46,045 bases of DNA from a virus: the IMG/VR virus record IMGVR_UViG_3300045733_000093, positions 1 through 46,045 of that record. One strand, given 5' to 3'. The position numbers and the translations under genes were made by a program. The notes under the pieces were generated by a model that saw nothing but the letters and a program-made list of their open reading frames with translations, had not been told where the DNA came from and did not search any database. Positions 1 to 46,045 of the stretch are shown here, one piece after another; position 1 is the stretch's first letter, and each line of letters starts with the position of its first letter.

Positions 1-26
1 AAAAAAAAGACCCCCTCGCGGGAGTC
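1..26 (-). terminator. Rho-independent terminator of the short leftward operon
   Basis: Read on the minus strand this is GACTCCC (26-20), a GCGA tetraloop of the GNRA class (19-16), GGGGGTC (15-9), then eight T (8-1), nine across the circular join. The seven-pair stem with one G-U pair, tetraloop and U-tract form a canonical intrinsic terminator. The stop codon of the preceding gene (27-25) lies at the edge of the stem. It ends the 639-25 operon and insulates it from the non-coding locus and early operon to its left on the circle. Confidence 0.85.
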
Positions 27-127
27 AGTCTGCGATGTAGATACGTTCGACTAGGATACTTGTCAATATCCTGTTTTCTTCGAGTTCATCGAATCTTGCT
101 ACCACGTAGGAAGCAGTTTTCAATGAT
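1..127. repeat. Left copy of 127-bp terminal direct repeat
   Basis: The first 127 bases are identical to bases 45919-46045. An exact overlap of 127 bases is what a de Bruijn assembler with k=127 leaves at the ends of a circular (or circularly permuted) contig. I therefore read it as an assembly join and not as a biological terminal repeat, although a short true terminal redundancy cannot be excluded without reads. Confidence 0.9.
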
Positions 128-216
128 TTATGATACTCCGTGAAAGAAGCATCAAATCAAGCTTCATCAACCGAATTTCTTACTCTCTGTGTTACAACGA
201 CACGATAGACTGTCAT
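25..216 (-). pseudogene. Small 63-codon gene interrupted by one in-frame TGA (opal)
   Basis: A minus-strand reading frame starts at ATG 216-214 behind a strong Shine-Dalgarno (AAGGAAGGTG). It encodes 19 residues, meets TGA at 159-157, then stays open in the same frame for another 43 codons to TGA at 27-25, next to the terminator. A Trp (TGG) at the interrupted codon would restore a 63-residue protein ending in VERIYIAD. The TGA is outside the 127-bp join, so it is not an end artefact. It could be a real inactivating mutation, a strain polymorphism, a sequencing error or programmed readthrough. TGA is an ordinary stop elsewhere (terL, endolysin), so genome-wide recoding is unlikely. I do not recognise the family. 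Confidence 0.55.
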
Positions 217-248
217 AGTCACCTTCCTTAGTTAGTGGTTAGTATGTT

Positions 249-684
249 CGAGAGTAGGATTGGCCCATTCTAGCGAATTGTGATGGGTTAGTGGATACTA
301 GACTGAGGCTGCGAGGAGACTATCAACCTGCTTGCGTGCGGCATCTTCGGAGATACCAAGACGGATGTAGTCGCGAATCATCCGTTCCTTGATATCCTCA
401 GCAGATACCTCAGACGGACGGTAAGGCAGTAGCGCAGCCTGATACGCATTGCTGCGCGCATTCGCCTTGAGAATGTCGTTTACCATCCCGACGACGGACC
501 ACTTCTTTTCCGTGATAGTGGCTGTCGCTTCGGCGTCGTTGTCTACGACATCGTAATCGAAAGACTTCTCAACCTTCTCTCCAGCCTGCGGATGTCCCTC
601 AGGGATTGAGAAAGTGAACTTTGCGATTTTCTTCTGCATGATGAAACTGACCTTTCATGCCAGAATGGGCCGATTCTACTCTTG
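249..684. repeat. 26-bp imperfect inverted repeats flanking the 298-639 gene
   Basis: Bases 249-274 and the reverse complement of 659-684 match at 22 of 26 positions, and all four differences are transitions. The shared core is GGCCCATTCT. The repeats lie about 24 bp beyond the stop and 20 bp before the start of the enclosed gene. They could be terminal repeats of a small mobile cassette, two copies of a regulatory site, or the arms of a long-range RNA helix around the coding region. Confidence 0.6.
298..639 (-). CDS. Hypothetical 113-aa protein, first gene of the short leftward operon
   Basis: I do not recognise this protein. It is soluble-looking, with a beta-type N-terminal half (KKIAKFTFSIPEGH) and a helical C-terminal half rich in Asp, Glu and Arg (about residues 55-110); there is no signal peptide or membrane segment. 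The start ATG at 639 is preceded by AAAGGT. Its codon use is visibly richer in G and C than that of most of the genome. It is transcribed leftwards from the promoter at 862-890 through a leader of about 215 nt, and together with the interrupted gene 216-25 forms an operon separated from everything else by a terminator. Such isolated, independently promoted small operons in lytic phages often carry immediate-early host-takeover genes; that role is inference only. Confidence 0.7.
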   Translation of the reverse strand: MQKKIAKFTFSIPEGHPQAGEKVEKSFDYDVVDNDAEATATITEKKWSVVGMVNDILKANARSNAYQAALLPYRPSEVSAEDIKERMIRDYIRLGISEDAARKQVDSLLAASV

Positions 685-797
685 AATCGCGTGTTATTCA
701 GTTGTCAAAGAGCCGAGCCGAGCCGGGATGTTTTCGTAACTCCCGACACTGGTATATAATGCAATCGAGATGCCCCAACCCATCCGTCCACATCATC

Positions 798-825
798 GAA
801 AACACGCCTGATTTCGCGTGTTTTC
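798..825 (-). promoter_or_regulatory. 10-bp perfect hairpin in the leader of the leftward operon
   Basis: GAAAACACGC (798-807) and GCGTGTTTTC (816-825) are perfect complements around an 8-nt loop. The hairpin sits about 30-60 nt downstream of the predicted start of the leftward transcript. It is followed on the minus strand by only four T, so it resembles a weak attenuator or an RNA-processing site more than a full terminator. Confidence 0.5.
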
Positions 826-843
826 TGTCCCACTCATAATGGA

Positions 844-862
844 AGTGACATGAATTGTCACT
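844..862. promoter_or_regulatory. Palindromic operator, 7-5-7 architecture
   Basis: AGTGACA-TGAAT-TGTCACT is a perfect dyad with 7-bp arms and a 5-bp centre. It lies directly on the predicted transcription start of the leftward promoter (-10 at 862-867), the position expected for a repressor site. Variants with the same 7-5-7 spacing occur at 909-927, 45155-45173 and 45173-45191, so one dimeric phage or host regulator probably binds both control regions. Confidence 0.6.
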
Positions 863-890
863 ATATATAGGGCGATTGACCTAACTTCAA
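862..890 (-). promoter_or_regulatory. Sigma70-type promoter driving 639-25
   Basis: On the minus strand TTGAAG (890-885) is followed after 17 bp by TATATA (867-862). The start would fall near 855, inside the perfect palindrome 844-862. No other minus-strand candidate between 640 and 1000 has both boxes at good spacing. Confidence 0.55.
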
Positions 891-908
891 TGCTATCAAT
901 GGTTTACA

Positions 909-927
909 GGTGACATAAATTGTGAAT
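909..927. promoter_or_regulatory. Second, imperfect 7-5-7 operator-like site
   Basis: GGTGACA-TAAAT-TGTGAAT resembles the palindrome at 844-862 in spacing and in the TGACA half. It is 65 bp away, about six helical turns, and lies between the two divergent promoters. Confidence 0.4.
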
Positions 928-972
928 AGAGTGACACATACCGGCACACCCCTCCACAGTTGGTCCCATATG

Positions 973-987
973 TGGCATGAAATTTGC
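973..987 (+). promoter_or_regulatory. Possible sigma54-type promoter (low confidence)
   Basis: TGGCATG-AAAT-TTGC fits the -24/-12 pattern with exactly 10 bp between the GG and GC doublets. It lies in the divergent intergenic region and would read into the late operon. A single match of this length can arise by chance. Confidence 0.2.
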
Positions 988-1101
988 CTTATAGCAATCA
1001 TCTCACTGTCCCCCAAAAATTCTCCAGAAAAAATAATCAGGAATATCTAGTTAATATTATAAATTTATAACAGAATCTATAGTTCAGTCGAACGATTTTA
1101 C

Positions 1102-1130
1102 TTGACAACTAGATGAAAGTGTGACATAAT
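1102..1130 (+). promoter_or_regulatory. Strong sigma70-type promoter of the late operon
   Basis: A perfect TTGACA (1102-1107) is followed by a 17-bp spacer and CATAAT (1125-1130). The predicted start near 1137 leaves a short leader before the Shine-Dalgarno AGGAG (1173-1177) and the ATG at 1186. A possible ATG at 1129 lies inside the -10 box and so cannot be the start of the first gene. No equally good promoter was seen inside the following 29 kb of plus-strand genes. Confidence 0.75.
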
Positions 1131-1185
1131 GCCTCTAGCCGATGGTCCGAATGAACTTACAGACAATATTATAGGAGTTAAGACA

Positions 1186-4624: not shown

Positions 4625-4831
4625 ATGCAAACAATTGATTGGAATCAAATTATTCTACCTGTAGTCAATAACGTATTGATTCCAGAACTTCTAGCATTTA
4701 TTACTAAATTTAGAAATCAGAATGGTGTTGACCCCACAATTGAACAGACACGGGAAGCTCTTGCATTGAATGTTACCGAAGGTTTGTCAATGTGGGATGC
4801 ATGGTTTCAGGCACACCCCCAGGTAAAGTAA
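4625..4831 (+). CDS. Hypothetical 68-aa protein
   Basis: Starts two bases after the preceding stop. It has an N-terminal hydrophobic amphipathic helix (IILPVVNNVLIPELLAFITKF), then a polar helix and a Trp-rich end (LSMWDAWFQAHPQVK). Not recognised. It may belong with the preceding lipoprotein-like gene as a lysis or membrane module; this is only positional inference. The homing endonuclease gene begins two bases after its stop. Confidence 0.55.
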   Translation: MQTIDWNQIILPVVNNVLIPELLAFITKFRNQNGVDPTIEQTREALALNVTEGLSMWDAWFQAHPQVK

Positions 4832-4833
4832 TA

Positions 4834-5247
4834 ATGTTGCACACTTGTAATCAATGTAAGGAAGATAATTTACTTTCTGATGAGATGTGTCTTTCTCATG
4901 GATTTGCTAAAGTTTGTAAAAAATGTTATAATACCTATAAAAGAAATTATAATAAGCGTCCCAATAGAATTACTAAAGTAGCAGAAATTGCTAGAAAATC
5001 TACTTTAAAACGTAATTATGGAATGACTCTTGAAGAATATGACAAAAGAGTAGAATTACAATTAGGGGGTTGTGCAATTTGTAAACAACCTTGTGAATTA
5101 GTTGTTGACCATAATCATAAAACTAATAGAGTTAGAAATTTACTTTGTATTAAATGTAATGTTATTTTGGGATTAGTTAATGATGATGAAGAATTATTAT
5201 TTGCTTTAATAGAATATCTCAAAAGACATAGCGAGAAAATTGCATGA
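4834..5247 (+). CDS. Endonuclease VII-type HNH homing endonuclease, copy 1
   Basis: The 137-aa protein has two zinc-binding CxxC pairs at its N-terminus (CNQC, CKKC) and a recombination endonuclease VII core: CAICKQP, VVDHNHKTNRVRNLLC, IKCN. The catalytic DHNH region and the structural cysteines are intact. I chose ATG 4834 because the longer frame from 4792 overlaps the upstream gene and gives a 14-residue extension without family features. The coding sequence is especially AT-rich. It ends ATGA, overlapping the terL start by four bases, so it sits precisely between two genes as free-standing homing endonucleases do. Related copies are at 10313 and 31956. Confidence 0.85.
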   Translation: MLHTCNQCKEDNLLSDEMCLSHGFAKVCKKCYNTYKRNYNKRPNRITKVAEIARKSTLKRNYGMTLEEYDKRVELQLGGCAICKQPCELVVDHNHKTNRVRNLLCIKCNVILGLVNDDEELLFALIEYLKRHSEKIA

Positions 5248-6917
5248 GTTTTACCCAGGGATTTTGGAAGCCGAATAAGAAGCAGGAGATATTTCTATCT
5301 CTACCTACTTCTATATTTGAAGCTTTCTATGGTGGAGGAAATGCTTCGGGAAAGTCCGATGTATTACTTGTTTATGGCCTCATCCATCGGTGGCATGAGA
5401 ATCCTACATTTAAACAAGTATTTATGCGTCGGACTTTCCCAGAACTAAGAAATGAGATTGTTCCGCGAAGCCGAGAAATATATCCTAAATTTGGTGCAAC
5501 TTTTAATAAGACTGACATGGTTTGGACTTTTCCTAGACCCGACCAGTTAGGGGGAACTGGTGGTTCTAACGAAGGCGCAATGATTTTCTTAGGTCATTGT
5601 GAGGAAGAATCAGATGTTCATAAGTATGACTCAATGGAAATCAATCTATTCACGCCCGACGAGCTTACTTCGTTTTCGGAATATATCTATTTATATATTG
5701 GGTTCACTCGCGTTAGGACTAAAGTTCCTGAGTTGCCGGCCATTATAAGAGCGGCAGGAATGCCTGGTGGAATGGGACATACCTTTACCAAGAAAAGATT
5801 TGTTACACCCTGTCCTGAAGGTGGCAAAATTATTGTTGGAAAAGGTAATGTTAAAAGATTCTATGTTCATTCTACTGTTGTCGATAATCCTTATGCTGAC
5901 CCTGAGTATTCTGCTCGATTAGATGGTATTCCATCTGAGGCAGAACGTAAGGCACGTAAATTTGGTGATTGGGATGCTTATCAAGGTCAGGTATTTGACG
6001 AGTTCAGAGATAGACACTATCCTGACGAGCCTGAAAACGCACTTCATGTAGTTCCACCATTTGATATTCCTGCATGGTGGCCTAGAATGGTAATTGGTGA
6101 TTGGGGCTTCGCGGCTATGACTTATATTGGATTTTACGCGATTTCCCCATCTAAGAGATTATATTTATATCGTGAATTGACGTGGCTTAAAACTAAGATT
6201 GAAGATTGGGCACCAGTCATTGAAGATTTTATTAAACGTGAGAATCCACGAGTAGTTAAATTTTGTAGGTCTGCTTCTCAAAGTAGAGGACAGGAACATA
6301 CAATTCAACAGCAGATTGAAACAGCATTAGGTAGACCAATAGAATTGTCAGATAATAATCCGGGGTCGCGTATTGCTGGTAAGATGTTGTTACATGAATA
6401 CTTGCGATGGAAGCAGAAACCATTTATTCCACCACAAGATTTGCCAGTCTATAGTGAAGAATATGCACAATGGATACTTAGGAATAAGGGACTAGAAGAA
6501 TATAAAGGATATCTTTCAATCTTTGACCCACATGAACCTGAAACAAATATTCCTAAGTTACAGATATTTTGTTGTGAGGATAAAGTTCATGATGGTCATC
6601 CTAATTGTTGTCCTGTAGTCATTGATGCTATTAGAGCTTGTTCTTATAACAAACCTAAAGCTAATAAGGTAGCAGAAGATGTTGCAGAATTTGATGGGGA
6701 TGACCCATATGATGACCTTCGATATGCTTGTGATTCAGCAGAACGATATTTTGTAGAAGCATCAAAGGAATTTGAGAAAATACAGAAGCAAGAAATTCTA
6801 ACTCAAGTTCTTATGGGCAATCAAGATTGGACAGCATACTATAGAAATATGCGAGTAATTGATTCTCCTGTTCCTAAGATGCAAGTTGTAAGTAGATTTC
6901 ATCGGAGGTCGATGTGA
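5244..6917 (+). CDS. terL: Terminase large subunit (packaging ATPase-nuclease)
   Basis: The 557-aa protein is the motor that drives DNA into the prohead and cuts the concatemer. Residues 30-38 (GGGNASGKS) are the Walker A motif; the segment MEINLFTPDELTSFSEYIY near residue 133 is the Walker B/catalytic Glu region; the RNase H-like nuclease domain begins near VIGDWGFAAMTYIGFY with its first metal-binding Asp. Length fits the family. It starts ATG in a four-base overlap with the homing endonuclease and ends TGA in a four-base overlap with the next gene, so translation is coupled. The second nuclease motif is less canonical (VKFCRSAS where DPA-type residues are common). Confidence 0.9.
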   Translation: MSFTQGFWKPNKKQEIFLSLPTSIFEAFYGGGNASGKSDVLLVYGLIHRWHENPTFKQVFMRRTFPELRNEIVPRSREIYPKFGATFNKTDMVWTFPRPDQLGGTGGSNEGAMIFLGHCEEESDVHKYDSMEINLFTPDELTSFSEYIYLYIGFTRVRTKVPELPAIIRAAGMPGGMGHTFTKKRFVTPCPEGGKIIVGKGNVKRFYVHSTVVDNPYADPEYSARLDGIPSEAERKARKFGDWDAYQGQVFDEFRDRHYPDEPENALHVVPPFDIPAWWPRMVIGDWGFAAMTYIGFYAISPSKRLYLYRELTWLKTKIEDWAPVIEDFIKRENPRVVKFCRSASQSRGQEHTIQQQIETALGRPIELSDNNPGSRIAGKMLLHEYLRWKQKPFIPPQDLPVYSEEYAQWILRNKGLEEYKGYLSIFDPHEPETNIPKLQIFCCEDKVHDGHPNCCPVVIDAIRACSYNKPKANKVAEDVAEFDGDDPYDDLRYACDSAERYFVEASKEFEKIQKQEILTQVLMGNQDWTAYYRNMRVIDSPVPKMQVVSRFHRRSM

Positions 6918-10312: not shown

Positions 10313-10762
10313 ATGTTATATACTTGTAAGAAATGTGGTAATAATAATTTATTGGCAGATGAGATGTATTGGTCTGGTGTTAGAACTTATAAATGTAAGA
10401 AATGTTTTAATTCCACTAGAAAAAGAAGAACAGGAATTAAAGCAACTGAAAAAGAAAGACTTTATATAAAACAATGGCAACTTAATAGACTTTATAAAAT
10501 TACTGTAGAACAATATGGACAGTTACTACAAGACCAAAATAATAAATGTTTAATTTGTGATAGAGAATTTGATGAACAAATTAAGCCAGTTATAGACCAT
10601 TGTCATAGAACAGGAAAAGTTCGTGGAATTCTTTGTAGTAATTGTAATACCGCTCTGGGATATCTTCGTGAGGACAAGGTAGTTGTCCAAAGACTCTTGA
10701 ATTATCTGGAGTCTAATACTACCCTAATAAAAGGAGAAGCAAATGTCAATACCCAACAGTGA
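10313..10762 (+). CDS. Endonuclease VII-type HNH homing endonuclease, copy 2
   Basis: The 149-aa protein has paired CxxC motifs (CKKC, CKKC), then CLICDREF and PVIDHCHRTGKVRGILC followed by SNCNTALGYL, the metal-binding and catalytic core of the endonuclease VII family; all key residues are present. It lies between portal and scaffold and overlaps the scaffold start by 20 bases. Its C-terminus (ANVNTQQ) resembles the C-terminus of the upstream portal (SNVNTAQ), which may mark sequence shared at the insertion boundary. It probably cuts intron-less alleles of neighbouring phages to spread its region. Confidence 0.85.
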   Translation: MLYTCKKCGNNNLLADEMYWSGVRTYKCKKCFNSTRKRRTGIKATEKERLYIKQWQLNRLYKITVEQYGQLLQDQNNKCLICDREFDEQIKPVIDHCHRTGKVRGILCSNCNTALGYLREDKVVVQRLLNYLESNTTLIKGEANVNTQQ

Positions 10763-12022: not shown

Positions 12023-13273
12023 ATGGCAGTTGTGGAATCTCAGGTTGCGGGTTTGGAACTCGAAAGAGTCCTTCCAAAGATTCGCGTCCTGTTTGAAAGA
12101 GATGATAAGTTTTACGCTAACATTAAGAAGCGTGATGTTGAGAAAATCTCTAACAGGCAGATGCGTATTCCTTTGGAACTACGTCCTGGTGGAAGCTTTC
12201 AGTATTTTAATGCTGATGGTGGAGACTTGGGACGGGGTGGTGGTCCGACATTCGATAAGGCTGTTCTTACAAGTGTATTCGTTAGTGAGAATATCGAATA
12301 TACTAAGCTTACAGAATGGTCTACGGATGATGAACGTAAGTCTGTAACTAACGGAGTTCGTAGACTTACTGCTACTGCACTTGATGAATTGCGCCGACAG
12401 TTGGACGCACAGATGATGCAGGTTGGTGATGGTGTTATCGGTGTTATTAGTGTCGTTGCTACTGCTGGTGGCGTTGATACTTATACACTTGGAACTGATG
12501 GCTTTGGCGCACGTTTGATGCGTTTTGGTCAGACTGTTCAGGTATTTGATACTGCTCTCGGTGTTCTGCGTGGTAGTGGCGTTATTACCAAGTGGGACGT
12601 TGAGAATAAGAGTATCGACGTTACCCCGGCTATTGCTGGCGCTATCGCTACCGATAAGCTGGTTACTAATGGTATTGCTAATCCTACAGCACTTCCTGCG
12701 TTGTATGGTGTGCCATATCATCATTCCAACGCTTCGACTGGAACATGGTTAGGGTTTAGTCGCAGCGCAACCCCTGAAATTCGTGCCAATAGGGTTAATG
12801 GCCTTAATGCTGCATTGACACTTCCGTTGCCACGTCTTGCGATGAATAAGATTGGTAATCGTGTAGGTATTGATAATACTTTCAAGCCTACAGCATGGCT
12901 GCATCCTTGTCAGAAACAGGCTTATGAAGAAATTGGACAGCTTGTGTCTATCATTCATAAGCAGCCCAAGGAAGAAGCCTTGAATATGTATTTTGGGGAT
13001 GGTATGCAGATGGCTGGTGCATCTCTAAGGGATTCTTTCAATTGGGACAAAACTAGAATTGACTTTATCGTTGATGAAGTGTGGGGTCGCGGTGAAATTC
13101 TTCCCATTGGTTTCTATACAACTGATGGTAGGAAAATCTTTGAAATCCGTGGTCCTTCTGGTGGTGTGGCAACAGCCGATATCTTCTATATGGTTGTGGG
13201 TATGCAGACATTCGTTACGAATCCTGCTGCTTGTGCCTATATTGATGCGTTGGCAGTTCCGACTGGTTACTAA
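12023..13273 (+). CDS. Major capsid protein
   Basis: The 416-aa protein has the size, position (after scaffold) and composition of a HK97-fold major capsid protein: an N-terminal arm with ELERVLPKIRVLFERDDKFY, an extended loop with RPGGSFQYFNADGGDLGRGG, and a Gly/Ala-rich C-terminal A-domain (IRGPSGGVATADIFYMVVGM). Codon choice is richer in G and C than that of neighbours, as expected for the most highly expressed gene. ATG 12023 follows AAGG. Long antisense open frames here are shadows produced by this codon bias. Confidence 0.8.
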   Translation: MAVVESQVAGLELERVLPKIRVLFERDDKFYANIKKRDVEKISNRQMRIPLELRPGGSFQYFNADGGDLGRGGGPTFDKAVLTSVFVSENIEYTKLTEWSTDDERKSVTNGVRRLTATALDELRRQLDAQMMQVGDGVIGVISVVATAGGVDTYTLGTDGFGARLMRFGQTVQVFDTALGVLRGSGVITKWDVENKSIDVTPAIAGAIATDKLVTNGIANPTALPALYGVPYHHSNASTGTWLGFSRSATPEIRANRVNGLNAALTLPLPRLAMNKIGNRVGIDNTFKPTAWLHPCQKQAYEEIGQLVSIIHKQPKEEALNMYFGDGMQMAGASLRDSFNWDKTRIDFIVDEVWGRGEILPIGFYTTDGRKIFEIRGPSGGVATADIFYMVVGMQTFVTNPAACAYIDALAVPTGY

Positions 13274-13982: not shown

Positions 13983-14888
13983 ATGATGCCTGGATTTTGG
14001 CGAGATACACGAGAATCTAATCAGCGAGTTTTACTCAATGATTATGGTACAATCAATAAGGTTAAGTATTTATTTCCACAGGGTGGGGGGCCTCGTGGGG
14101 CTTTCAATACGTTTGCAGACTTAAAGCAGAACCTTCGTTCCAAGGATATTATTTTCTTGTCTGGAGTTTTACAGGAACAGGCTATTACACCTGTTGGTGT
14201 ATTTGACGTAACTGTTATGGGTGCTGCTAATAGACCCAGACAGGCTACTAATGGTGGTGTTCCTACAGGTGGCGGAGCATCCTGGTTAGCACCTTCGAGT
14301 GTGACAGCAGGTGCAGCATTAATTCAGGTGCTAGAACAGGGATGGAGTTTTGAGAACATCCAGTTTGCTCCACCTGCTGCATTAGACTGTATTCGTTTCC
14401 GTCGTATGGAAACTGCTGCTATTCCTGATGCTTCACATGGTAGAGTTATTAGTTGTTATTTCTCTACTGGTGGAGCTGCGGGATGTGGAATCAATGGTGG
14501 CGAATGTAAGCGCATCGTCATTGATGATTGTGAATTTGAAGCATTAGGTGCTGGAACTTGTATTCGTAATACTGCTGATGGTGGTATTGCTGCACCTTCC
14601 TATTGGGAAATTACGAATAATCGTTTCTTACGTGGTAATGTCAATGAAATTGTTGCCGCTCTTGGAAATAGTTTGATTAAGGGTAACGTATTCCATGCGG
14701 TTTATGCTGTTGAGGCTGGCTGGAGAGTCAATCTCGATGGTGGCGCTGCAAAGAATATGGTTATTGATAACTATTTCTCTGATGTGGATACTACTATCGC
14801 ATTAGGATGCAAGAAGGCTGTTGCTGCTGATATCTGGAGAAATTATGTAGCAACGGTTGCTGACCCAAAGGTTGTTGTTCCTGCGTAA
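13983..14888 (+). CDS. Right-handed beta-helix protein, capsid or tail fibre
   Basis: The 301-aa protein consists of repeated short strands with Asn/Asp turns in the region 115-285 (GWSFENIQFAPPAAL, KRIVIDDCEFEALG, YWEITNNRFLRG, NMVIDNYFSDVD), the coil pattern of pectate-lyase-like parallel beta-helices. Such proteins form trimeric fibres or bind polysaccharides. The conserved start LLNDYGTINKVKYLFPQGGG may be the virion anchor. GGAG is 9 bp before ATG 13983; the next codon is also ATG. Confidence 0.65.
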   Translation: MMPGFWRDTRESNQRVLLNDYGTINKVKYLFPQGGGPRGAFNTFADLKQNLRSKDIIFLSGVLQEQAITPVGVFDVTVMGAANRPRQATNGGVPTGGGASWLAPSSVTAGAALIQVLEQGWSFENIQFAPPAALDCIRFRRMETAAIPDASHGRVISCYFSTGGAAGCGINGGECKRIVIDDCEFEALGAGTCIRNTADGGIAAPSYWEITNNRFLRGNVNEIVAALGNSLIKGNVFHAVYAVEAGWRVNLDGGAAKNMVIDNYFSDVDTTIALGCKKAVAADIWRNYVATVADPKVVVPA

Positions 14889-23899: not shown

Positions 23900-25077
23900 G
23901 TAATACAGCGAATACTGCTGGTTCAGCGTATAATCGCTCATTAACTCCTAGTCCATTGGAGACTAAGTTTACTCCTAAAGCCACTGAAATGTGGAATAAC
24001 TATAGTAATGGAGCGAATCAACAGACACAAGACTATAGTAATATCATGGGAGGATACCAAGATTTTACTAATAGACTTCTTGCTAAAGATGCAAATGGAA
24101 ATATCATTGGACCTAAAACTTACGGTGCTTCATCCGTAAGTGTGAATCGTCCTGAAGAATTAACTAAAGCTTATGGATACTTAGATGAAGCTGCACCTGG
24201 GTATCGTAATTTCGCAGAAACGGGTGGATATTCACCTACTGATATTCAAGAATTAAGAGCGCGTGGTTCTGCTCCCATTACATCTGCATATAGTAATGCA
24301 GCGATGGAAATGAATCGTGCAAGAACATTAGGTGGTGCAGGTGGTTCACCTAATTATATTGCAGCTATGAGTAAGATGCAGAGAGAGTTACCGGGTCAAT
24401 TAGCTACTGCTACAACTGGTGTAAATGCTAGTTTAGCTGATGCTATTAGACAAGGTAAACTTTCTGGATTAGCAGGTCTTACAGGTATTGGTGGAGAAAT
24501 GGGTGGTTTGGCTAGTGCTGAATCAGGTAGACAGTTACAGGCTGGAATAGCTAATCAAGGTGCAGGATTACAAGCTGAGGGATTAAATCAGCAATCATTA
24601 AGAGATTGGAATGGTGCTCAATTATCTAGTTTAGGTGGTCAAGCTAGTCTATATGGAACTACTCCTGCTATGGCAGCTACATTTGGTAATCAGGCTCTTA
24701 ATGCTTCGGGTCAGGAATTTGGTGCAGAAGAAGCTCGTAATAGATATGGATTAGGAGCACTTGGAACACAGATGAGTTCTTATGCTGCTATGCCTCAATC
24801 TAAACCTTGGTGGCAGCAAGCATTAGGAGCGGCTGGAAGTATTGTGCCTTATCTAGGTAAATTTCTTAAACCTGGCACTAATACTACTGACCCTAATAAT
24901 CCTTATGCAACAACTCCTGAATATGGTCTTAATCCTAATGATACTGGTCAACGAACTTATGAAACTGGCATACCTGGTGTTACTGATTATACTAATAGTC
25001 CAGGTTATTACAATCAGCCTGGTGTTAATATCACTGAAGGTCAAGGAAGTAATTTCTGGAGTAAGTACGGAGAATAA
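23866..25077 (+). CDS. Putative internal virion / DNA-ejection protein 1
   Basis: The 403-aa protein is rich in Gly, Ala, Asn, Ser and Gln, with helical amphipathic parts (SAYSNAAMEMNRARTLGGAG) and a region with an apolar helix near residue 315 (WWQQALGAAGSIVPYLGKFL). This composition and position, followed by two larger helical proteins at the end of the late operon, resemble the P22/T7-type ejection proteins that leave the capsid with DNA. It overlaps the acetyltransferase by 34 bases. Family not recognised with certainty. Confidence 0.5.
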   Translation: MGKDNSRQTGLSNTANTAGSAYNRSLTPSPLETKFTPKATEMWNNYSNGANQQTQDYSNIMGGYQDFTNRLLAKDANGNIIGPKTYGASSVSVNRPEELTKAYGYLDEAAPGYRNFAETGGYSPTDIQELRARGSAPITSAYSNAAMEMNRARTLGGAGGSPNYIAAMSKMQRELPGQLATATTGVNASLADAIRQGKLSGLAGLTGIGGEMGGLASAESGRQLQAGIANQGAGLQAEGLNQQSLRDWNGAQLSSLGGQASLYGTTPAMAATFGNQALNASGQEFGAEEARNRYGLGALGTQMSSYAAMPQSKPWWQQALGAAGSIVPYLGKFLKPGTNTTDPNNPYATTPEYGLNPNDTGQRTYETGIPGVTDYTNSPGYYNQPGVNITEGQGSNFWSKYGE

Positions 25078-30685: not shown

Positions 30686-31956
30686 TGCTTCCTCTGCTTT
30701 CCACTCATAAACACTTTAAGTTCTTCTACTTGGTCATTTGGCATAGTATAGACTATTTGATTACCTATGTTATTAGTCTTAATCATTCCTGCTGCATCGA
30801 AGGATTGCATAATTTCATCAAATTCTTGAGGATTAGAATAGTGTTGCCACATCTTCTTCATCATCACTATTCTAGTAATTTGATGATTATCTCGATTCAA
30901 TAGTTCCATAATAATCATTGTTTTTAATAGGGCAGACTCACTAATACCCTGCTTACCCATAGTAGTTTTACGAACATTCCCAAGTAGTTTCTCGCATTCA
31001 ACTATAGCGTCTGTCATAGCTTCTGGAGTGAGAACTAATTTCGGTTCATGCGCGAGGGATAATAACATAGCTACCTTCAATACACTATCCCCAAACCTAT
31101 TAAGTGTTCCAGTCTCATCCTTCTCAGATGTTTTCATTAACTCTTTAAAGTTCTCATACCAGTCATCATATATACTTCCTGCTTCATTGAAGTATATATC
31201 TCTACCATGTTTAACCTTACGATATTTATATTCATCTGATTTATCTATTTGTGCAATGGCATGAAATTCACCCACCAATTTCGCAACTTCTTTAAGATAA
31301 TGTGATGAGGCAATATAGTTAGGAGGATGAGAAAGAGGATATATAAGACTGTTACTAACCTTTGATTCTTTTTCATAAACAATAAAAGTTCTTGCAAAAT
31401 ATCCTCCTTGAATTGCTGACCTAGTAAAGAAATCCTCACTCATGGCTTCATTAGTTGCAGTAAGCATGGTAACAGTGGGATTCTTTAATTCAAATGATTC
31501 CATCTTCAATAGAGATTTCCATTCACCTACGTTATATTGTCTATCATATAGGTCAGTTAGAATTTTAGTCGCTACCTTATCATCTACTATACTACTACTC
31601 AGTTCAGAAGAACATATGAATGCTACAGACTTTAATATTACCTTTCCTCCCGGTGCTGTAACTGCTGTTCCCATCTCTTTGAGAATACCTTGAATAGATG
31701 AACGACCAGATATAATACGAGTGTTGTTTACAGCTTGAACTAACTGTCGGGCCATCGAGATTGGAGGGCCCTTCTTTAGTCCAGACTCAGCATGTAACAT
31801 TACATATATGTTTGGATATAAATTGTATATCTGTCTATTTAGCCATACCTGGTCTTTAAGCACAGCAGAAATTGCTGCGATTGCAGACCATCTCCAAAAA
31901 CTTACCGGACTTTCTAATTCCTCGTGCTGCTTTATGATTTCTGTTAGAAAGTCCAT
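30682..31956 (-). CDS. DUF3987-like P-loop replicative helicase/ATPase, probable
   Basis: The 424-aa protein begins FLTEIIKQHEELESPVSFWRW, the usual start of DUF3987-type primase-helicase proteins. The P-loop position (residues 55-65, HAESGLKKGPP) is degenerate: the usual GKS/GKT is LKKGP. The later segments VAFICSSELSS and NPTVTMLTATNE, and a C-terminal winged-helix-like region (ESALLKTMIIMELLNRD), match the family. It probably unwinds DNA at the fork with the UDG-PolA fusion upstream in the operon. Whether it hydrolyses ATP is uncertain because of the altered P-loop. A homing endonuclease lies just upstream. Confidence 0.6.
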   Translation of the reverse strand: MDFLTEIIKQHEELESPVSFWRWSAIAAISAVLKDQVWLNRQIYNLYPNIYVMLHAESGLKKGPPISMARQLVQAVNNTRIISGRSSIQGILKEMGTAVTAPGGKVILKSVAFICSSELSSSIVDDKVATKILTDLYDRQYNVGEWKSLLKMESFELKNPTVTMLTATNEAMSEDFFTRSAIQGGYFARTFIVYEKESKVSNSLIYPLSHPPNYIASSHYLKEVAKLVGEFHAIAQIDKSDEYKYRKVKHGRDIYFNEAGSIYDDWYENFKELMKTSEKDETGTLNRFGDSVLKVAMLLSLAHEPKLVLTPEAMTDAIVECEKLLGNVRKTTMGKQGISESALLKTMIIMELLNRDNHQITRIVMMKKMWQHYSNPQEFDEIMQSFDAAGMIKTNNIGNQIVYTMPNDQVEELKVFMSGKQRKQ

Positions 31957-32387
31957 TATTCATTCTCAAGAAGATACTGAGCCGCTTTATGAAGCAATAG
32001 AATATTATCTTCAAAATGACCTAATCCTTTATTACATCTACCACATAATAATCCCCTAACTTTATGAGTTATATGATTATGGTCAACATCCAACTTCTCT
32101 GATAGTTCATCACAAATTGCACATTTACCACCTTGTTGGGCATACATTATCTCATATGATTGAATTGTTAAATTATATTTTTTAAGTTTATCTTCTCTAT
32201 TCTTTTTCTTAGTATTTCTAAATTTAAAATAAGTAGAAAAACATAGTTTACAGTAAGGTTGTAATCCATGAGTATATCTATTATTGTTATAGAAATTATC
32301 TAATGACTTAAATTCATGACACCAATGACATTCCTTTTTTTGAATACCATCTATAATTTGAATAGGTAAAGGTTGAGTTCCTCTCAT
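31956..32387 (-). CDS. Endonuclease VII-type HNH homing endonuclease, copy 3
   Basis: The 143-aa protein has CHWC and CKLC pairs, CAICDELSEK, then LDVDHNHITHKVRGLLC and GRCNKGLGHF; all cysteines and the catalytic DHNH residues are present. ATG 32387 follows AAGGAG. Its stop overlaps the helicase start by one base (TAATG). It is the only copy on the minus strand and lies between a 54-aa gene and the helicase. The three copies differ clearly in sequence (N-terminal halves are poorly conserved), so they are separate acquisitions or old duplicates. Confidence 0.85.
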   Translation of the reverse strand: MRGTQPLPIQIIDGIQKKECHWCHEFKSLDNFYNNNRYTHGLQPYCKLCFSTYFKFRNTKKKNREDKLKKYNLTIQSYEIMYAQQGGKCAICDELSEKLDVDHNHITHKVRGLLCGRCNKGLGHFEDNILLLHKAAQYLLENE

Positions 32388-32389: not shown

Positions 32390-32554
32390 CTACTCCTTAA
32401 TTATAGGAAGTTCATTTGAGTCTACGATTTCACTGAGATGGTTAATAACTTTGATTAGTATTTCATTTTTAGGATTTATGTACTCATTTTCAAAGTATTT
32501 ATATAGCGCGAAGACTTCCTCTGGAGTAAAATGATAGTAAAGAACCTTAATCAT
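32390..32554 (-). CDS. Hypothetical 54-aa protein
   Basis: A short gene: ATG at 32554-32552 overlaps the polymerase stop (ATGA) and TAG lies at 32392-32390. The protein (starting MIKVLYYHFTPEEVFALYKY) is helical, mildly acidic and without membrane segments. Overlap with the polymerase stop and codon use typical of neighbours support a real gene. Function unknown. Confidence 0.6.
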   Translation of the reverse strand: MIKVLYYHFTPEEVFALYKYFENEYINPKNEILIKVINHLSEIVDSNELPIIKE

Positions 32555-35085
32555 TTCTTCACCATGAACTGTTCAGTTATAGACTTAAGTGATGGAATCT
32601 CAATTGGTTCATATACAGTAGGTAATTTGAACTTCTTCAAATCCATATAGTTCATTCCACATTCTATCTCACAAGGAATACTGAGTTTATGTCTTTTGAG
32701 GGTGCATTGAGAAAAATCTATTTCTCGTTCCATTTCCTCCTTTATAATAGGAATCCATTCGACTTGCTTTACAATTGGTATACAGAATAAGAGAGCATCA
32801 TGTGATTCCATGACTATCTTGATACCGGGAATTCTTTCTCTTATACGAATTGCAGCATTCTTAGTGTTATCAGATACAGCACGTTGAGGTATATAAGAGA
32901 ATCCTTGTCTAAATAGTTCTTCTCCAAACCTCTCAAAGAATGTTCGCTTACCCCCCATAGGTGCATCTACACCATAAGGTAAAGGAGCTATTAACTGTCG
33001 ATTCTTTTTAAGTGCTTCGATAACTCCTGTTTGAAATACCTGTTGAACCTTCGGGGATTTTGCGTGGAATATTTTGAGTGCTCCCTCTGCAATCGCTTCC
33101 GAAATCGTAATAGGTATCTTATATTTCCTTGCTTGCGTATTGAGTTCAATAGATGCCCTACGCTTTCCTGCGCCAAGGTGTCCTGCATGTCTAAGAGTTT
33201 TGCCAGCGAATCTAATAGGATGCTCATAACCAAGTATCTTTTTAGAATAATCAGATTCAGAACCACCGAAAAACCAAGAAGCAGTAAGAGCGTGTATGTC
33301 ATGTTCATCATACATCCTTAATGTATCTTCATCATCAGCCAATAATGCTACAACTCTGGCTTCTGCTTGTGAACTATCTGCTTGAACGAATATCTCATCT
33401 ATTTCATCAGGAATATACATTCCGCGTATATCAGCACCAATGTCACCATGTTTAGTCATAGTCTGAAATGCGGTGCCTAATACTTTCTGTTTCTTTTTAC
33501 CATTCTCATCTATTACTTCTACTTGAGGTCTAATTGGAGGGTCTTGTTGGCCTGTGGATGTTCTGCCAGTATCCAAACAGGGGAAGTAGGTAGTTCGCAT
33601 TCTTCCATCATAGTCAGGGAGGGCCATGAGGTATGTAGAGATACTCTTTCTAACCCGTCTACCTTCAAGTATAAGCTCACATATTTTCCGGTGTTCTGGT
33701 TTTTTAATAGCAGAGGGACTATTGAGTAAGGCTGTGATATCTTCTTCTCCAGTGGTGTCCTTACGAGGTAACTTGAGGTTATCCCAAAGTAAGACAGCAA
33801 CTTGCGTGGGAGAATTGACATTAACTTCTGCCCCAATGAGCTTAAATAACTCATATCTAACCCTTTCATCCCATTCAACATATTTTCTTAACAGTCTATC
33901 ACGTTCATTTGTATCAACTTTAAATCCTTGATTTTCAATACTCCAATATACATCAGGTAACTTCATTAAGAAATTTTCATAGAATGGACGCATACCTAAT
34001 TCATCTAGGTCTGAATCCATATTTTCATCTACTTCGAGTGTTACACAACTGTCACGGGCGCATCCTGTAAGTAGGTCAGTAATACTGCCTTGATACATAC
34101 CTTCATCTTTATAGAAGGGTTCTTCTGTATATAACGAAGTGTTAAAGGCGAGTCCTTTGGGAAGTTCAGGATTAATCGCGTGGGCCTTGAGCATTGTGTC
34201 TGATGCAAGATGTTCGATAATAAATCCAAGTCGTTTGATTTTATCTCTATCGTAGTTGAAGTTTTGTCCAATAATTTCTTTTTCATATAGCATCTCTGCA
34301 AGAATAATCCAACATTGAACTAAATCACTATCTGGAATAGTAGAGATTCCATCGCAATTCCATAATGGAACTGTCATACCATGATGTTTATTTAGAGACA
34401 ATCCAATACATACAGGGATACAAGTTCCGTTGGCTTCTATGTCTACAGCCATACGAACTTTATCCTTGTATCTATCGCGAAATTCAGCTAATTGTGCTGA
34501 GTTTCGACATATCTCTAAAGTCCGCGAGGGTAAAACAAATTCAGGGAATTTACTTTGAGCAAGTGCGCGTTTAAAGTCAAATATCATTATCTGACGATTC
34601 CAATACCCCTTGAATTCCGCCCCTGGTGTTTGATGTAGTAAATGTGCAGGATTATATGTAGGAATAAACTTAACCCCCATACCATGCATAATACTACCAC
34701 GATAATGTCCAATTTTGGTCTTACCAGACAAAGCCCACAAAGCAGTCCCACCAAGAGCCAAGATACAATGTGGCTTAATTTCATTAATTTCATTCTGTAG
34801 TTCATGTAATTGAATCTCCATGTCTATACCAGCATTTCTAGCTCGAATTGCGAATGGTATTTTCTTACCATAGGTATTAAGAGGGACTTCAAATTTACTT
34901 ACATTTGATAACCAACAATTTGAACGAAATATACCAGCATCAGTTAATAGATGGTCTAATTCTCTACCAGATGAGCCTATGAAAGGTTTGCCTGCAATAG
35001 TTTCTTGAGAATTTGGGCATTCTCCCAGTATCATAAGCTTCGCGCCTACGCTACCAGTTCCGGGCACATATTTCTTTTCACTCAT
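32551..35085 (-). CDS. Uracil-DNA glycosylase - DNA polymerase A fusion
   Basis: The 844-aa protein has an N-terminal family 4/5-like uracil-DNA glycosylase domain (about 1-170; GECPNSQETIAGKPFIGSSG) and then a family A polymerase. A 3'-5' exonuclease begins at DIEANG near 212 with GQNFNYDRDKI further on; polymerase motif A is ADSSQAEARV (about 567-576), motif B is around FAGKTLRHAGHLGAGKRR (about 624-641) and motif C is ESHDALLF (about 759-766). In UDG motif B the usual His-Pro is Asn-Pro (YNPAHLL), so glycosylase activity may be altered. It probably copies the phage genome, with the UDG domain sensing uracil. Confidence 0.85.
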   Translation of the reverse strand: MSEKKYVPGTGSVGAKLMILGECPNSQETIAGKPFIGSSGRELDHLLTDAGIFRSNCWLSNVSKFEVPLNTYGKKIPFAIRARNAGIDMEIQLHELQNEINEIKPHCILALGGTALWALSGKTKIGHYRGSIMHGMGVKFIPTYNPAHLLHQTPGAEFKGYWNRQIMIFDFKRALAQSKFPEFVLPSRTLEICRNSAQLAEFRDRYKDKVRMAVDIEANGTCIPVCIGLSLNKHHGMTVPLWNCDGISTIPDSDLVQCWIILAEMLYEKEIIGQNFNYDRDKIKRLGFIIEHLASDTMLKAHAINPELPKGLAFNTSLYTEEPFYKDEGMYQGSITDLLTGCARDSCVTLEVDENMDSDLDELGMRPFYENFLMKLPDVYWSIENQGFKVDTNERDRLLRKYVEWDERVRYELFKLIGAEVNVNSPTQVAVLLWDNLKLPRKDTTGEEDITALLNSPSAIKKPEHRKICELILEGRRVRKSISTYLMALPDYDGRMRTTYFPCLDTGRTSTGQQDPPIRPQVEVIDENGKKKQKVLGTAFQTMTKHGDIGADIRGMYIPDEIDEIFVQADSSQAEARVVALLADDEDTLRMYDEHDIHALTASWFFGGSESDYSKKILGYEHPIRFAGKTLRHAGHLGAGKRRASIELNTQARKYKIPITISEAIAEGALKIFHAKSPKVQQVFQTGVIEALKKNRQLIAPLPYGVDAPMGGKRTFFERFGEELFRQGFSYIPQRAVSDNTKNAAIRIRERIPGIKIVMESHDALLFCIPIVKQVEWIPIIKEEMEREIDFSQCTLKRHKLSIPCEIECGMNYMDLKKFKLPTVYEPIEIPSLKSITEQFMVKK

Positions 35086-38967: not shown

Positions 38968-39251
38968 TTGTTTTTAATCCTTATTTCAATTACAATATCA
39001 TTGTTATTGGTTTGATATTGTTTAACTTCAACTTTTGGAAGTTTAGCTTCAACTTCCTTTTGATATCTTTTATTTAATTCGTTAAGCATCTCTTTCTTGG
39101 CTTCGACAAAATAAGCATATCTAGCACCCTGTTTATATGCTTTAGCAATATGCTTATCAATGTATGAAAGGCAATTCTCAATATAGGGAGTTGCCATTTC
39201 ATTGATATCGAATTGTGTTCCATTAGAAGATTGCCATTTTATGTTATTCAT
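38964..39251 (-). CDS. Hypothetical 95-aa protein
   Basis: The protein has a helical middle rich in Lys, Glu and Ala (DKHIAKAYKQGARYAYFVEA, KEMLNELNKRYQKEVEAKLP) and a C-terminal strand (DIVIEIRIKNK). It overlaps the nuclease gene by 8 bases and the downstream gene by four. It could be a nuclease partner, judged only by coupling. Confidence 0.55.
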   Translation of the reverse strand: MNNIKWQSSNGTQFDINEMATPYIENCLSYIDKHIAKAYKQGARYAYFVEAKKEMLNELNKRYQKEVEAKLPKVEVKQYQTNNNDIVIEIRIKNK

Positions 39252-40221
39252 CCTTTTCGTTCACAGGATTCCATTGTGGTCCAACGATGAAGTTAAGTTT
39301 CAATTCTTCTTCACGCATTCCAGGGTCAGATTCACATACTTTCGTGAATGGACAGTTACCATACTTTCCCTCGCATTGTCCGAATTGCGGGGGATAGTGT
39401 CCTACCTCTGCATACATTAGGAGTAACTTTGCATAAAATGGGAGTGTTTCACTCTGCCATTCGAGAAGCCTAGCTGCACTATATGAGATTGGAGGTCGAA
39501 GGAATTTCTCAGCAGGTTTGAGAGTTTTTTGAAAACCAATCTTATTAATGAAGATATTACGTGTCCTCATTATTAAGCATTGGCCGATGAATTGATTATT
39601 GAGAGATAGAGTCTCTCTCCGTTGTTTCATCGTTTTGTGGTCAACTGGATAGATACCTTGATTAGTATCTACAACCCAATCCAGCTTAGCTTTCCACATT
39701 ACACGAATATCATCATCTTCGTATAATACTTCACCTTTAACTACTTCTACTTCTAATGGAACCCATGAATCATTAGCGTAGAACTTAGCATACTCATCAC
39801 AAGTATCTAATACAAACTGCCAACCTGTTTTGTATTCAACTGAATCCTTGGGGGTATTAAATACTCCAGGGTATTCATTGATTGGATGTCCACATACAGG
39901 TTTTAACTGTTCAGGTGTAGATACGAAGTTCGTGCAACCTTTACAACCTTGAATGTATAATTCTGCGGCTGTAATTCCAAATCCAAATGCTTGCTCGCGT
40001 TTCATTCTCTGGATTATAGAACCATAATACACTTCAAGAAACTTGTGCATAATGGACCCACATTCAAGAGAATTAGATTTACCCTGTAGAGACTGAAAGT
40101 TATGGTTAAATCTAAAGTCCGCGAGGCGTGGACAGTTCATCAGAGATGTTAAGACAGTAGCATCTAAGATGACATTCTTCTTTTGTGGAGTTATATCCAC
40201 AATTTCATTTATGTCAGTCAT
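39244..40221 (-). CDS. Cas4/RecB-type PD-(D/E)XK exonuclease with iron-sulphur cysteines
   Basis: The 325-aa protein has SLMNCPRLADFRF near its N-terminus, SLECGSIMHKFLEVYY (helix with the catalytic His), the PD-(D/E)XK core AKLDWVVDTNQGIYPVDHKT, and LNNQFIGQCLIM (QxxxY-like motif). Its C-terminus has clustered Cys (QCEGKYGNCPFTKVC) which, with the early Cys, form the four-cysteine iron-sulphur site of Cas4/AddB proteins. It probably resects DNA ends for the Sak4 pathway. I prefer ATG 40221, which has AAGGTG at good spacing, to ATG 40227. Confidence 0.75.
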   Translation of the reverse strand: MTDINEIVDITPQKKNVILDATVLTSLMNCPRLADFRFNHNFQSLQGKSNSLECGSIMHKFLEVYYGSIIQRMKREQAFGFGITAAELYIQGCKGCTNFVSTPEQLKPVCGHPINEYPGVFNTPKDSVEYKTGWQFVLDTCDEYAKFYANDSWVPLEVEVVKGEVLYEDDDIRVMWKAKLDWVVDTNQGIYPVDHKTMKQRRETLSLNNQFIGQCLIMRTRNIFINKIGFQKTLKPAEKFLRPPISYSAARLLEWQSETLPFYAKLLLMYAEVGHYPPQFGQCEGKYGNCPFTKVCESDPGMREEELKLNFIVGPQWNPVNEKDE

Positions 40222-40390
40222 TTTCATTCACCTTATTCTGATTACAATTAGCTAATAGTTCTGTTTCATTAAACGCTTGAGCAGTTTTAATTCTATCCAT
40301 AACTTCACGTTTAGCTAATCTAATTCGATTAGCACGCTTCTTCTGAGCACGCTTACGAATGTCACGCGACCTATTTCTGGACTTAGGCAT
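40214..40390 (-). CDS. Small basic protein (58 aa)
   Basis: ATG at 40390, TGA at 40216-40214, overlapping the nuclease start by 8 bases. The first half is very basic (PKSRNRSRDIRKRAQKKRAN), the second half is a neutral helix. Such a protein could bind DNA or RNA. A usable ribosome site (GGAATAG) is upstream. The reading frame fills what would otherwise be a 186-bp gap. Confidence 0.6.
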   Translation of the reverse strand: MPKSRNRSRDIRKRAQKKRANRIRLAKREVMDRIKTAQAFNETELLANCNQNKVNEND

Positions 40391-43609: not shown

Positions 43610-43686
43610 TGGTGCCTCTGATTGGAGTCGAACCAATACTTTATCGATTTTAAGTCGATTTTCTCTGCCAGTTGGAATACAGAGGC
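43610..43686 (-). tRNA. tRNA-Leu (anticodon UAA) with short variable loop
   Basis: The minus strand folds as a cloverleaf: acceptor GCCTCTG/CAGAGGC, D-arm with a three-pair stem, anticodon stem ATCGA/TCGAT with 7-nt loop CTTAAAA (anticodon TAA), 5-nt variable loop, T-arm ATTGG/CCAAT with TTCGACT loop, discriminator A, and CCA encoded in the DNA (43612-43610). UAA reads the Leu codon UUA, abundant in this AT-rich genome. Bacterial Leu tRNAs usually have a long variable arm; this one does not. No other tRNA was seen. Confidence 0.85.
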
Positions 43687-44847: not shown

Positions 44848-44863
44848 TGTCTTAGTCCTTCCA

Positions 44864-45025: not shown

Positions 45026-45100
45026 AATAATATTGTCCTCTTTTGGTGACACATGGTATTCACCTGTCAACATATAAGATGCAACATTTATGCCTATTCC

Positions 45101-45124: not shown

Positions 45125-45154
45125 GAAATTGACACACAACATCTAGTGGTCTTT

Positions 45155-45173
45155 AGTGACGTTTTTTGTCGCA
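45155..45173. promoter_or_regulatory. Operator-like site, 7-5-7 spacing
   Basis: AGTGACG-TTTTT-TGTCGCA keeps the spacing and TGAC/GTC core of the 844-862 palindrome with substitutions. It abuts the next copy, sharing one base. Confidence 0.4.
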
Positions 45174-45191
45174 GTGACGCAAATTGTGTCA
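45173..45191. promoter_or_regulatory. Operator-like site, tandem to the preceding one
   Basis: AGTGACG-CAAAT-TGTGTCA resembles 844-862 in arms and centre. The centre is 18 bp from that of the adjacent site. Both lie upstream of the early operon, suggesting shared control with the divergent region. Confidence 0.45.
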
Positions 45192-45220
45192 TTGTCCTCT
45201 TTAGTGGACACTTTTATTAT
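45192..45220 (+). promoter_or_regulatory. Rightward promoter-like sequence entering the iteron locus
   Basis: TTGTCC (45192-45197), 17-bp spacer, TATTAT (45215-45220). It would produce a transcript into the non-coding iteron region; there is no plus-strand gene there, so a primer or regulatory RNA is conceivable. Confidence 0.35.
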
Positions 45221-45288
45221 ACTATTCTGTTGCAGACTCATAATTCTGACCCCCTATTAGGTTTATAATAATTTCCAAAATCAGGTCT

Positions 45289-45343
45289 TTCCGTGATTGT
45301 TCTGTGACTATTCTGTGACTGTTCTGTGAATACTCTGTGAACC
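45289..45343 (+). repeat. Iteron array 1: five contiguous 11-bp repeats
   Basis: Five units without gaps: TTCCGTGATTG, TTCTGTGACTA, TTCTGTGACTG, TTCTGTGAATA, CTCTGTGAACC. Consensus TTCYGTGANTR. The 11-bp period puts each site on the same face of DNA. Adjacent DNA to both sides does not extend the array. Confidence 0.85.
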
Positions 45344-45351
45344 GGATTCGC

Positions 45352-45381
45352 GCTAACCCGCTGATTCTAAACGAGTTAGGC
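45352..45381 (+). repeat. 30-bp element beside iteron array 1
   Basis: Exactly 8 bp after array 1. It has weak dyad ends (CTAAC/GTTAG) and core CTGATTCTAA. It matches, at 20 of 30 positions and without gaps, the element 8 bp after array 2 on the opposite strand. Confidence 0.7.
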
Positions 45382-45465
45382 CGACCCCCTGGACTCTCCC
45401 CTTCCATTATACCACCTATTATGCTATGCTTGAGTGACCTATAAAGAGGACACTATATGGTGGGG

Positions 45466-45504
45466 GGTTATAATATTATATAAAAAAAAAAAAAAAAAAA
45501 AAAA
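45466..45504. other. AT-rich tract with 23 consecutive A
   Basis: Starts with GGTTATAATATTATAT and runs to A23 (45482-45504). It lies between the two iteron arms. AT-rich DNA flanked by iterons is the usual layout of an unwinding element of a replication origin. The exact A-run length is uncertain because homopolymers assemble poorly. Confidence 0.6.
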
Positions 45505-45598
45505 GAATACACCCACTCACACTATTGTCTAGTCCACTGTCATCCTCTGAGGACAGCTAGAGGGCCGGTTTTTTGATGGGGGGTCTCCTTCCCTTCGA

Positions 45599-45627
45599 GC
45601 TAAGTTCATTAGAATCAGTCACTTAGC
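45599..45627 (-). repeat. 29-bp element beside iteron array 2
   Basis: Perfect 7-bp arms GCTAAGT (45627-45621 on the minus strand) and ACTTAGC, with core CTGATTCTAA at the same offset as in the first element. It is 8 bp from array 2, exactly mirroring arm 1. Confidence 0.7.
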
Positions 45628-45635
45628 CCGGAATG

Positions 45636-45690
45636 GTCGCACGGAAACATCACAGAACGACCACGGAAACATCACAGCATATTCACGGAA
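45636..45690 (-). repeat. Iteron array 2: five contiguous 11-bp repeats, inverted
   Basis: On the minus strand from 45690: TTCCGTGAATA, TGCTGTGATGT, TTCCGTGGTCG, TTCTGTGATGT, TTCCGTGCGAC. It has the same TTCYGTG core, number and period as array 1 but opposite orientation, so the arrays point at each other across 292 bp. Confidence 0.85.
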
Positions 45691-45780
45691 TGTTCAGGAT
45701 TTAGGTTTCCATTAGAAATGTGATTCACTATCTGCTATTTTATATTTCGAATGTGAAGGGTAATGTATACGATATTATGG

Positions 45781-45899
45781 CAATACGATAAGTAATATAA
45801 AACTCACCATATACAGGAGGATAGTATTCCATTAACAATACTTGCGATAAGCAAGCTAAAAGCCGTATCAAAATATATAATGGGACAATACGATAAGCA
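45781..45899 (+). repeat. Short direct repeats CAATACGATAAG
   Basis: CAATACGATAAGTA (45781-45794) and CAATACGATAAGCA (45886-45899) are near-identical, and 45836-45853 holds a third copy with four extra bases that form a small hairpin (CTTGC/GCAAG). Spacing is about 52 bp. They lie between array 2 and the terminator of the short operon, where no gene is seen. Confidence 0.55.
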
Positions 45900-45918
45900 G
45901 AGCAGCCAATTATAGACA

Positions 45919-46045
45919 AAAAAAAAGACCCCCTCGCGGGAGTCAGTCTGCGATGTAGATACGTTCGACTAGGATACTTGTCAATATCCTGTTTTCTTCG
46001 AGTTCATCGAATCTTGCTACCACGTAGGAAGCAGTTTTCAATGAT
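45919..46045. repeat. Right copy of 127-bp terminal direct repeat
   Basis: Identical to bases 1-127. Collapsing the two copies gives a circle of about 45,918 bp in which the minus-strand gene ending at base 25 and its terminator are continuous with the non-coding region 45026-45918. Confidence 0.9.

Follow-up and report, generated by a model that had tools for sequence, protein, structure and literature searches.

Why does a phage genome of 46,045 bp contain no GATC at all and only three GTAC? The question is raised by IMG/VR record IMGVR_UViG_3300045733_000093, of which positions 1..46045, i.e. the whole stretch of DNA that was analysed, are here called the window. It is very probable that both words have been stripped from it by selection, exerted by Type II restriction-modification systems of the host that would cut unmethylated sites; the enzymes, like the identity of the host, are deduced from the phage side. 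This explanation builds on direct observation of the depletion, of its codon-level route, of its separate and repeated change within a family of relatives, and of the pattern in which phage-encoded Dam methylase goes together with GATC.

Loss of GATC and GTAC in the window

Under a maximal-order Markov model 156.5 GATC are expected in the window (z -12.5 for the observed 0), and GATC is the sole tetramer that is wholly missing. An earlier account made from the letters of the window (the sequence-only reading) had claimed an apparently complete absence against about 150 expected, which was, if anything, an understatement, and had proposed a count against Markov and codon-shuffled models. In 100 genomes simulated with an order-2 (trinucleotide-preserving) Markov model GATC occurs 153.7 ± 12.7 times (minimum 124), and in 400 synonymous-codon shuffles of the coding DNA 119.4 ± 7.8 times (minimum 95), compared to 0 observed. 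Non-coding DNA is equally clean, with 0 GATC in 4,610 start positions versus ~15.7 expected. GTAC, which had been listed among the palindromes that are present, is in fact nearly as depleted: 3 are found versus 133 expected (Markov), and 2 in coding DNA versus 107.9 under synonymous-codon shuffling. The residual sites lie at 14047..14050 (inside the 13983-14888 gene), at 25065..25068 (in the last few codons of the 23866-25077 gene) and at 32480..32483 (either in the space between the genes that end at 32387 and 32551 or within a 54-codon open reading frame (ORF)). Site elimination is defined by Rusinov et al. (2018, PMC6286503) as a compositional bias below 0.1 where the expected number of sites is above 15; by observed/expected, both GATC (0/156) and GTAC (3/133) fall within this bound.

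Apart from these two words, no tetramer in the window shows a comparable depletion. CATG (130/196) and CTAG (115/166) are slightly low by the Markov model, but must be regarded as ordinary because they are normal under codon shuffling (113/121 and 102/112). GAAC (218/194) and GTTC (190/211) are normal, which rules out a single relaxed specificity (GWWC), and AATC, GATT and GTAA are all plentiful. The 21 window genes that occur in fewer than 3 of the 33 genomes compared (6,783 bp together) contain 0 GATC versus ~23 expected, so that such rare newcomers were either cleaned too or acquired from sources equally free of GATC.

The route by which the sites were lost is visible at the codon level. 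As the sequence-only reading had claimed, aspartate is encoded by GAC when the next codon starts with C (GAT 0, GAC 86), whereas before A, G or T it is mostly GAT (554, versus 114 GAC); its GACCCT and GACCCA examples exist as well, although its coordinates were off by up to ~12 bases (the true positions being 5898, 7780, 18445 and 23070). Isoleucine after G is never ATC (0 of 132; ATT 98, ATA 34), and serine after codons ending in GA is AGY in 11 cases and TCN in none. For GTAC, the phases give 0 GTA before C, 1 TAC after G and 1 ACN after GT, i.e. the avoidance of both words is visible in every reading phase examined. Site loss thus reflects selection via a synonymous route and not composition.

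The fate of individual sites was followed at codon-aligned positions between the window and five relatives (L029, L027, L036, L060 and L051, in this order below). None of the relatives' GATC is kept in the window (0/66, 0/1, 0/64, 0/67 and 0/47; 0/245 in total), and none of their GTAC (0/1, 0/36, 0/10, 0/45 and 0/46; 0/138 in total), compared to a retention of 10-40% for most control tetramers, some of which are little retained as well (versus L051, CTAG 0/21 and AGCT 1/48). When the lone L027 site is disregarded, both amino acids are the same at 27-44% of the positions where GATC was lost, which is similar to the controls, so that nothing points to a cost of the purge in protein sequence.

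Two further observations on word use in the window concern other palindromes. CGCG is over-represented (69 versus 33; in coding DNA 60 versus 26.7 under codon shuffling), an excess without explanation that is seen in avoiders and many non-avoiders alike. CTGCAG is missing (0/12), and such weak depletions of 6-letter palindromes are common to most relatives.

Variation across the phage family

Relatives were collected with the gene at 32551..35085 (- strand), which encodes a uracil-DNA glycosylase (UDG) domain fused to a family A DNA polymerase (Pfam UDG 7.6e-17, DNA_pol_A 1.2e-25) and served as marker for the family tree; the UDG domain is N-terminal, and the gene is common to 33/33 genomes compared. 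A polymerase search of viral contigs gave 128 relatives, 80 of them retained and the other 48 not retrieved in that round, and further scans with the polymerases of L036, L029 and L063, plus one Dam scan, brought the set to 130 distinct contigs of an uncultured phage family. Left out of this set are duplicates from repeated retrieval, L149 (at 25% identity) and, among the 19 Dam-scan contigs, the 15 that had no family polymerase in the stretch examined (the other four being the L036 and L148 contigs, L030 and L216). It includes several identical polymerases and many short contigs, so that the counts are not independent and should be taken as descriptive.

With avoidance taken as an observed/expected ratio below 0.3 for GATC and 0.4 for GTAC, 52 contigs avoid both words, 19 only GATC, 11 only GTAC and 48 neither. 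The GATC ratio peaks sharply at zero (54/130 below 0.05) and never exceeds 0.9. A FastTree phylogeny of the polymerases from 127 contigs (three with less than 400 aa of polymerase being left out) requires at least 15 changes for GATC and 11 for GTAC (cut-off 0.3), and an IQ-TREE phylogeny of 81 at least 10 and 6, respectively. The two avoidances therefore change separately and repeatedly: the window's own clade is nearly all double-avoiding, while a second double-purged clade (L031, L033 and L199) sits among non-avoiders.

In G035, 7 of 8 aligned GATC sites are common to relatives, too few to tell an ongoing purge from relaxation. In G021 (loci L034, L101 and L102) the replication module alone (~1-14 kb; 13/72 in the L034 locus) is poor in GATC, and the structural module (~15-45 kb) is near normal, with 149 sites in ~30 kb; either recombination joined modules that had been exposed to different restriction, or the purge went module by module. 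The 62,483-bp G008 (L013, L138-L140 and L196) carries the polymerase, the DUF3987 gene and tail genes twice each; it appears to be a head-to-tail chimera of two related phages, probably an assembly artefact, and was entered (as L013) as one contig.

When 416 palindromic Type II-like patterns of 4-6 letters were scanned over the 33 genomes, GATC and GTAC gave by far the strongest depletions, and a few degenerate 6-letter patterns reached z near -5. CCWGG is low in G017 (5/46), G007 (15/69), G036 (12/72), G026 (26/88), G031 (19/61) and G018 (26/66), and GGWCC is absent from G033 (0/28). Among these, the purges of GGWCC in G033 (L060, L125 and L126) and of CCWGG in G017 (L027, L095 and L096) are lineage-specific. 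Such a mix of short palindromes that differs by lineage fits Type II restriction, and not mismatch repair or base composition.

Purging, methylation and the rival explanations

The proposed mechanism would start with host enzymes cutting unmethylated GATC (of the DpnII/MboI type) and GTAC (of the RsaI/Csp6I type, the familiar enzymes for this word). Phages with fewer sites would survive entry more often, and mostly synonymous substitutions would remove sites until none or almost none were left, upon which the incoming DNA would no longer offer a target. Relatives facing just one of the two systems would purge just that word. In some relatives, a Dam methylase encoded next to the polymerase would methylate the GATC of the progeny, so that GATC could be kept.

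The window itself has no matches to PF01555, PF02086, PF00145 or PF05869. Among 37 records searched, none contains a methylase of the N6/N4, D12 or C5 families, and Dam (PF05869; TIGR01712 matches below its cut-off) is found in one, G022/L036. Further Dam genes were found by tblastn in L148 and L030, and by a scan with a Dam alignment in L216, where the gene (L216:9686-10062), at the end of the contig, is split over two frames that overlap, owing to a frameshift or a sequencing error. In all four carriers (4 of the 130 contigs) Dam is located directly downstream of the polymerase, and all four retain GATC (observed/expected 0.75 in L036, 0.74 in L148, 0.72 in L030 and 0.59 in L216), while three of them avoid GTAC (0.34, 0.11 and 0.17) and L216 does not (0.61). 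Dam was detected in none of the 71 GATC avoiders. The contrast is sharpest between L030 and L032, near relatives with polymerases 74% identical, which differ as the proposed mechanism predicts: L030 has Dam and a GATC ratio of 0.72, whereas L032 lacks Dam and has a ratio of 0.02. Taking the specificity of these Dam proteins to be GATC, the pattern is good but small support for a GATC enzyme that is blocked by methylation.

As a general explanation for the non-avoiders, a methylase had to be rejected, the Dam family match being confined to G022 among the 37 records; the genes of non-avoiders that are absent from avoiders are, by eye, structural or of unknown function, and include no methylase. 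Since Dam occurs in just one of these records and the other methylases in none, most non-avoiders probably simply do not meet the enzymes.

Several points weigh against selection by host restriction, or against the part that Dam plays in it. The host restriction enzymes are predicted ones. The Dam association consists of four contigs only, of which L036 and L148 are sisters and L216 has its two-framed gene at a contig end. Its strength also depends on the comparison: Fisher's test of Dam versus GATC retention (uncorrected for relatedness throughout) gives p = 0.040 over the 130 contigs, p = 0.24 over the 85 that extend 1.6 kb or more beyond the polymerase, and p = 0.004 within the 38 GTAC avoiders of those 85 (3 and 0 versus 4 and 31), a subset that was picked after seeing the data. 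Moreover, L029 retains GATC while avoiding GTAC, and neither its record nor 28 of its accessory proteins yielded a DNA methylase; L218, which stands outside the family, has a GATC count of 0/33 in spite of a gene resembling Dam (37% to the query); and no methylase accounts for the retention of GTAC in the GATC-only relatives examined.

The sequence-only reading had attributed the loss to host restriction of GATC or to another system that reads this word, and had suggested a comparison with related phages. One such other system is methyl-directed mismatch repair, by which Dam and MutH of the host, and not restriction, would select against GATC, as proposed for enterobacteriophages. Counter-selection of GATC has long been known there, with phiX174 lacking the word (PMC5014478), and a phage Dam would shield from MutH too, so that the Dam pattern fits both explanations. 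However, GTAC is purged as hard as GATC, so that the effect is not confined to GATC, it is avoided without GATC avoidance in 11/130 contigs, and there are other lineages poor in CCWGG or GGWCC. MutH is not known to read GTAC or to occur outside the gammaproteobacteria, and this explanation is considered very unlikely. Slightly less credible still is a DpnI-like enzyme of the host, dependent on methylation, which would cut Dam-methylated GATC and thereby cause phages from Dam-positive hosts to lose the site. Such cassettes do occur as alternatives to DpnII (PMC12707154), but the family members that carry Dam keep GATC, opposite to the prediction, and GTAC would be left unexplained. It is the GTAC purge, the separable loss of the two words, the depletion of other Type II words in single lineages and the retention of GATC in Dam carriers that together favour restriction; the earlier attribution thus stands as to restriction, its causal step resting on indirect reasoning, but it missed the GTAC half.

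The cause could also be sought in the phage itself, if one of its nucleases cut GATC and GTAC in host DNA and the phage had become site-free for self-protection. The window does encode three Endonuclease VII-type nucleases (4792..5247, + strand, Pfam PF02945 3e-18; 10313..10762, + strand, 1.1e-23; 31956..32387, - strand, 4.2e-21) and a PD-(D/E)XK exonuclease-like core gene (39244..40227, - strand, PHROG 1218). Of the 42 relatives searched, however, just 2 have Endonuclease VII genes, and these 2 are not GATC avoiders (observed/expected below 0.3); the PD-(D/E)XK gene is present in 33/33 genomes whether they avoid or not, and none of the gene clusters of the 33 genomes separates the two groups without exception. 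With no nuclease gene tracking avoidance, this cause was rejected as highly improbable. The best gene association is that of a 108-aa protein of unknown function (10/12 near-complete GATC avoiders, 0/16 others), which is compatible with shared descent. Finally, a compositional or mutational bias, or a copied host composition, would require no selection on sites. With only two tetramers affected next to their normal or abundant neighbours, and with a removal that is exact and tracks codon choice, the shuffles refute it as a complete account, and of all the explanations it deserves the least credence.

A wider interpretation is tentative and lies a little on the doubtful side: within this family, one and the same host enzyme may be countered either by purging GATC or by carrying Dam, two equivalent solutions that lineages have acquired and given up again and again, while for GTAC purging is the sole answer. 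Site content would then be a record of past host restriction, with complete and partial purges and, in G021, modules of different histories joined by recombination.

The genome, its host and known systems

An exact 127-bp repeat at both ends (1..127 and 45919..46045, both + strand) indicates that the window is apparently a complete phage genome, closed or terminally redundant. Terminase (large subunit at 5244..6917, PHROG 979, 2.5e-31) and head genes (major head protein at 12023..13273, PHROG 14242, 1.5e-05) lie on the + strand, and the DNA replication module, which includes the UDG/polymerase fusion, an SNF2 helicase, a Sak4-like ATPase and a DUF3987 protein, on the - strand, as does a single tRNA-Leu (TAA) at 43610-43686. 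Pfam scans of 50 of the 51 listed ORFs (21580-21873 being left out) showed no integrase family, which is negative evidence only for a non-temperate phage.

Clues to the host are few. None of 50,697 named phage records is a near relative of the window over its first 25 kb; the polymerase, terminase and helicase match named phages at below 60% identity only, the head protein gives no match to them, and the polymerase matches plasmids likewise at below 60% only. A profile search of genome contigs with a 22-row polymerase alignment returned one match of 25%, in Chryseobacterium. Shine-Dalgarno cores precede 25/43 genes (versus 16% of random 17-mers), which is read as weighing against a Bacteroidota host. 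The predicted endolysin (23016..23492, + strand) is a glycosyl hydrolase 108 (GH108; Pfam PF05838 3.4e-26, PHROG 315 endolysin 6.8e-49), which points to a peptidoglycan-walled, i.e. bacterial, host. An archaeal host had been considered on account of the Nitrososphaerales, which have persistent orphan methylases for GATC (m6A) and GTAC (m4C) (PMC10609329), but is unlikely given this peptidoglycan hydrolase, since a virus of that group would be expected to lack a gene for peptidoglycan lysis.

Restriction-site avoidance is already well known, and the window alone is a striking but ordinary case of a known strategy. What is added is the double purge, its lability and the contrast between purging and methylating, which together make a good natural experiment. 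From sequence alone, two cutting specificities are predicted for its bacterial host, and this prediction is testable. A family of more than 100 contigs allows complete, partial and single-word purges to be set side by side with methylase carriage, which permits a test of how fast sites are lost and regained and of whether methylase carriage relaxes selection on them. The family could also serve as a natural record of the bacterial DNA-cutting defences met by each lineage. A search of the literature, the partial coverage of which makes it weak evidence, found neither this phage family described nor a double purge of GATC and GTAC within a single phage family.

As to known systems, the Nitrososphaerales (PMC10609329) methylate the same two words within one lineage, but their methylases have no restriction partner, unlike the systems proposed here, and the window has its peptidoglycan hydrolase. 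In enterobacteriophages, including phiX174, GATC is absent or rare as well, and is discussed in PMC5014478 in terms of Dam/MutH repair, which cannot cover the loss of GTAC from the window. Phage-encoded Dam homologues are known in T4, P1 and others (PMC12707154), to which the four relatives with PF05869/TIGR01712-like Dam genes compare; unlike those phages the window has no Dam, and within its family the gene is an alternative to purging. A further parallel is that of the non-temperate double-stranded DNA phages of Rusinov et al. (PMC6286503), which eliminate orthodox Type II palindromes (in 7.5% of cases), and among which GATC is reduced in 46/46 phages whose hosts encode a GATC enzyme. The window resembles them in having eliminated Type II palindromes, with GATC among the avoided words; it differs from the cases given there in that its host enzymes are predicted from the phage, that two tetramers are gone from one genome, and that the change can be followed across one uncultured family, with a methylase as the alternative.

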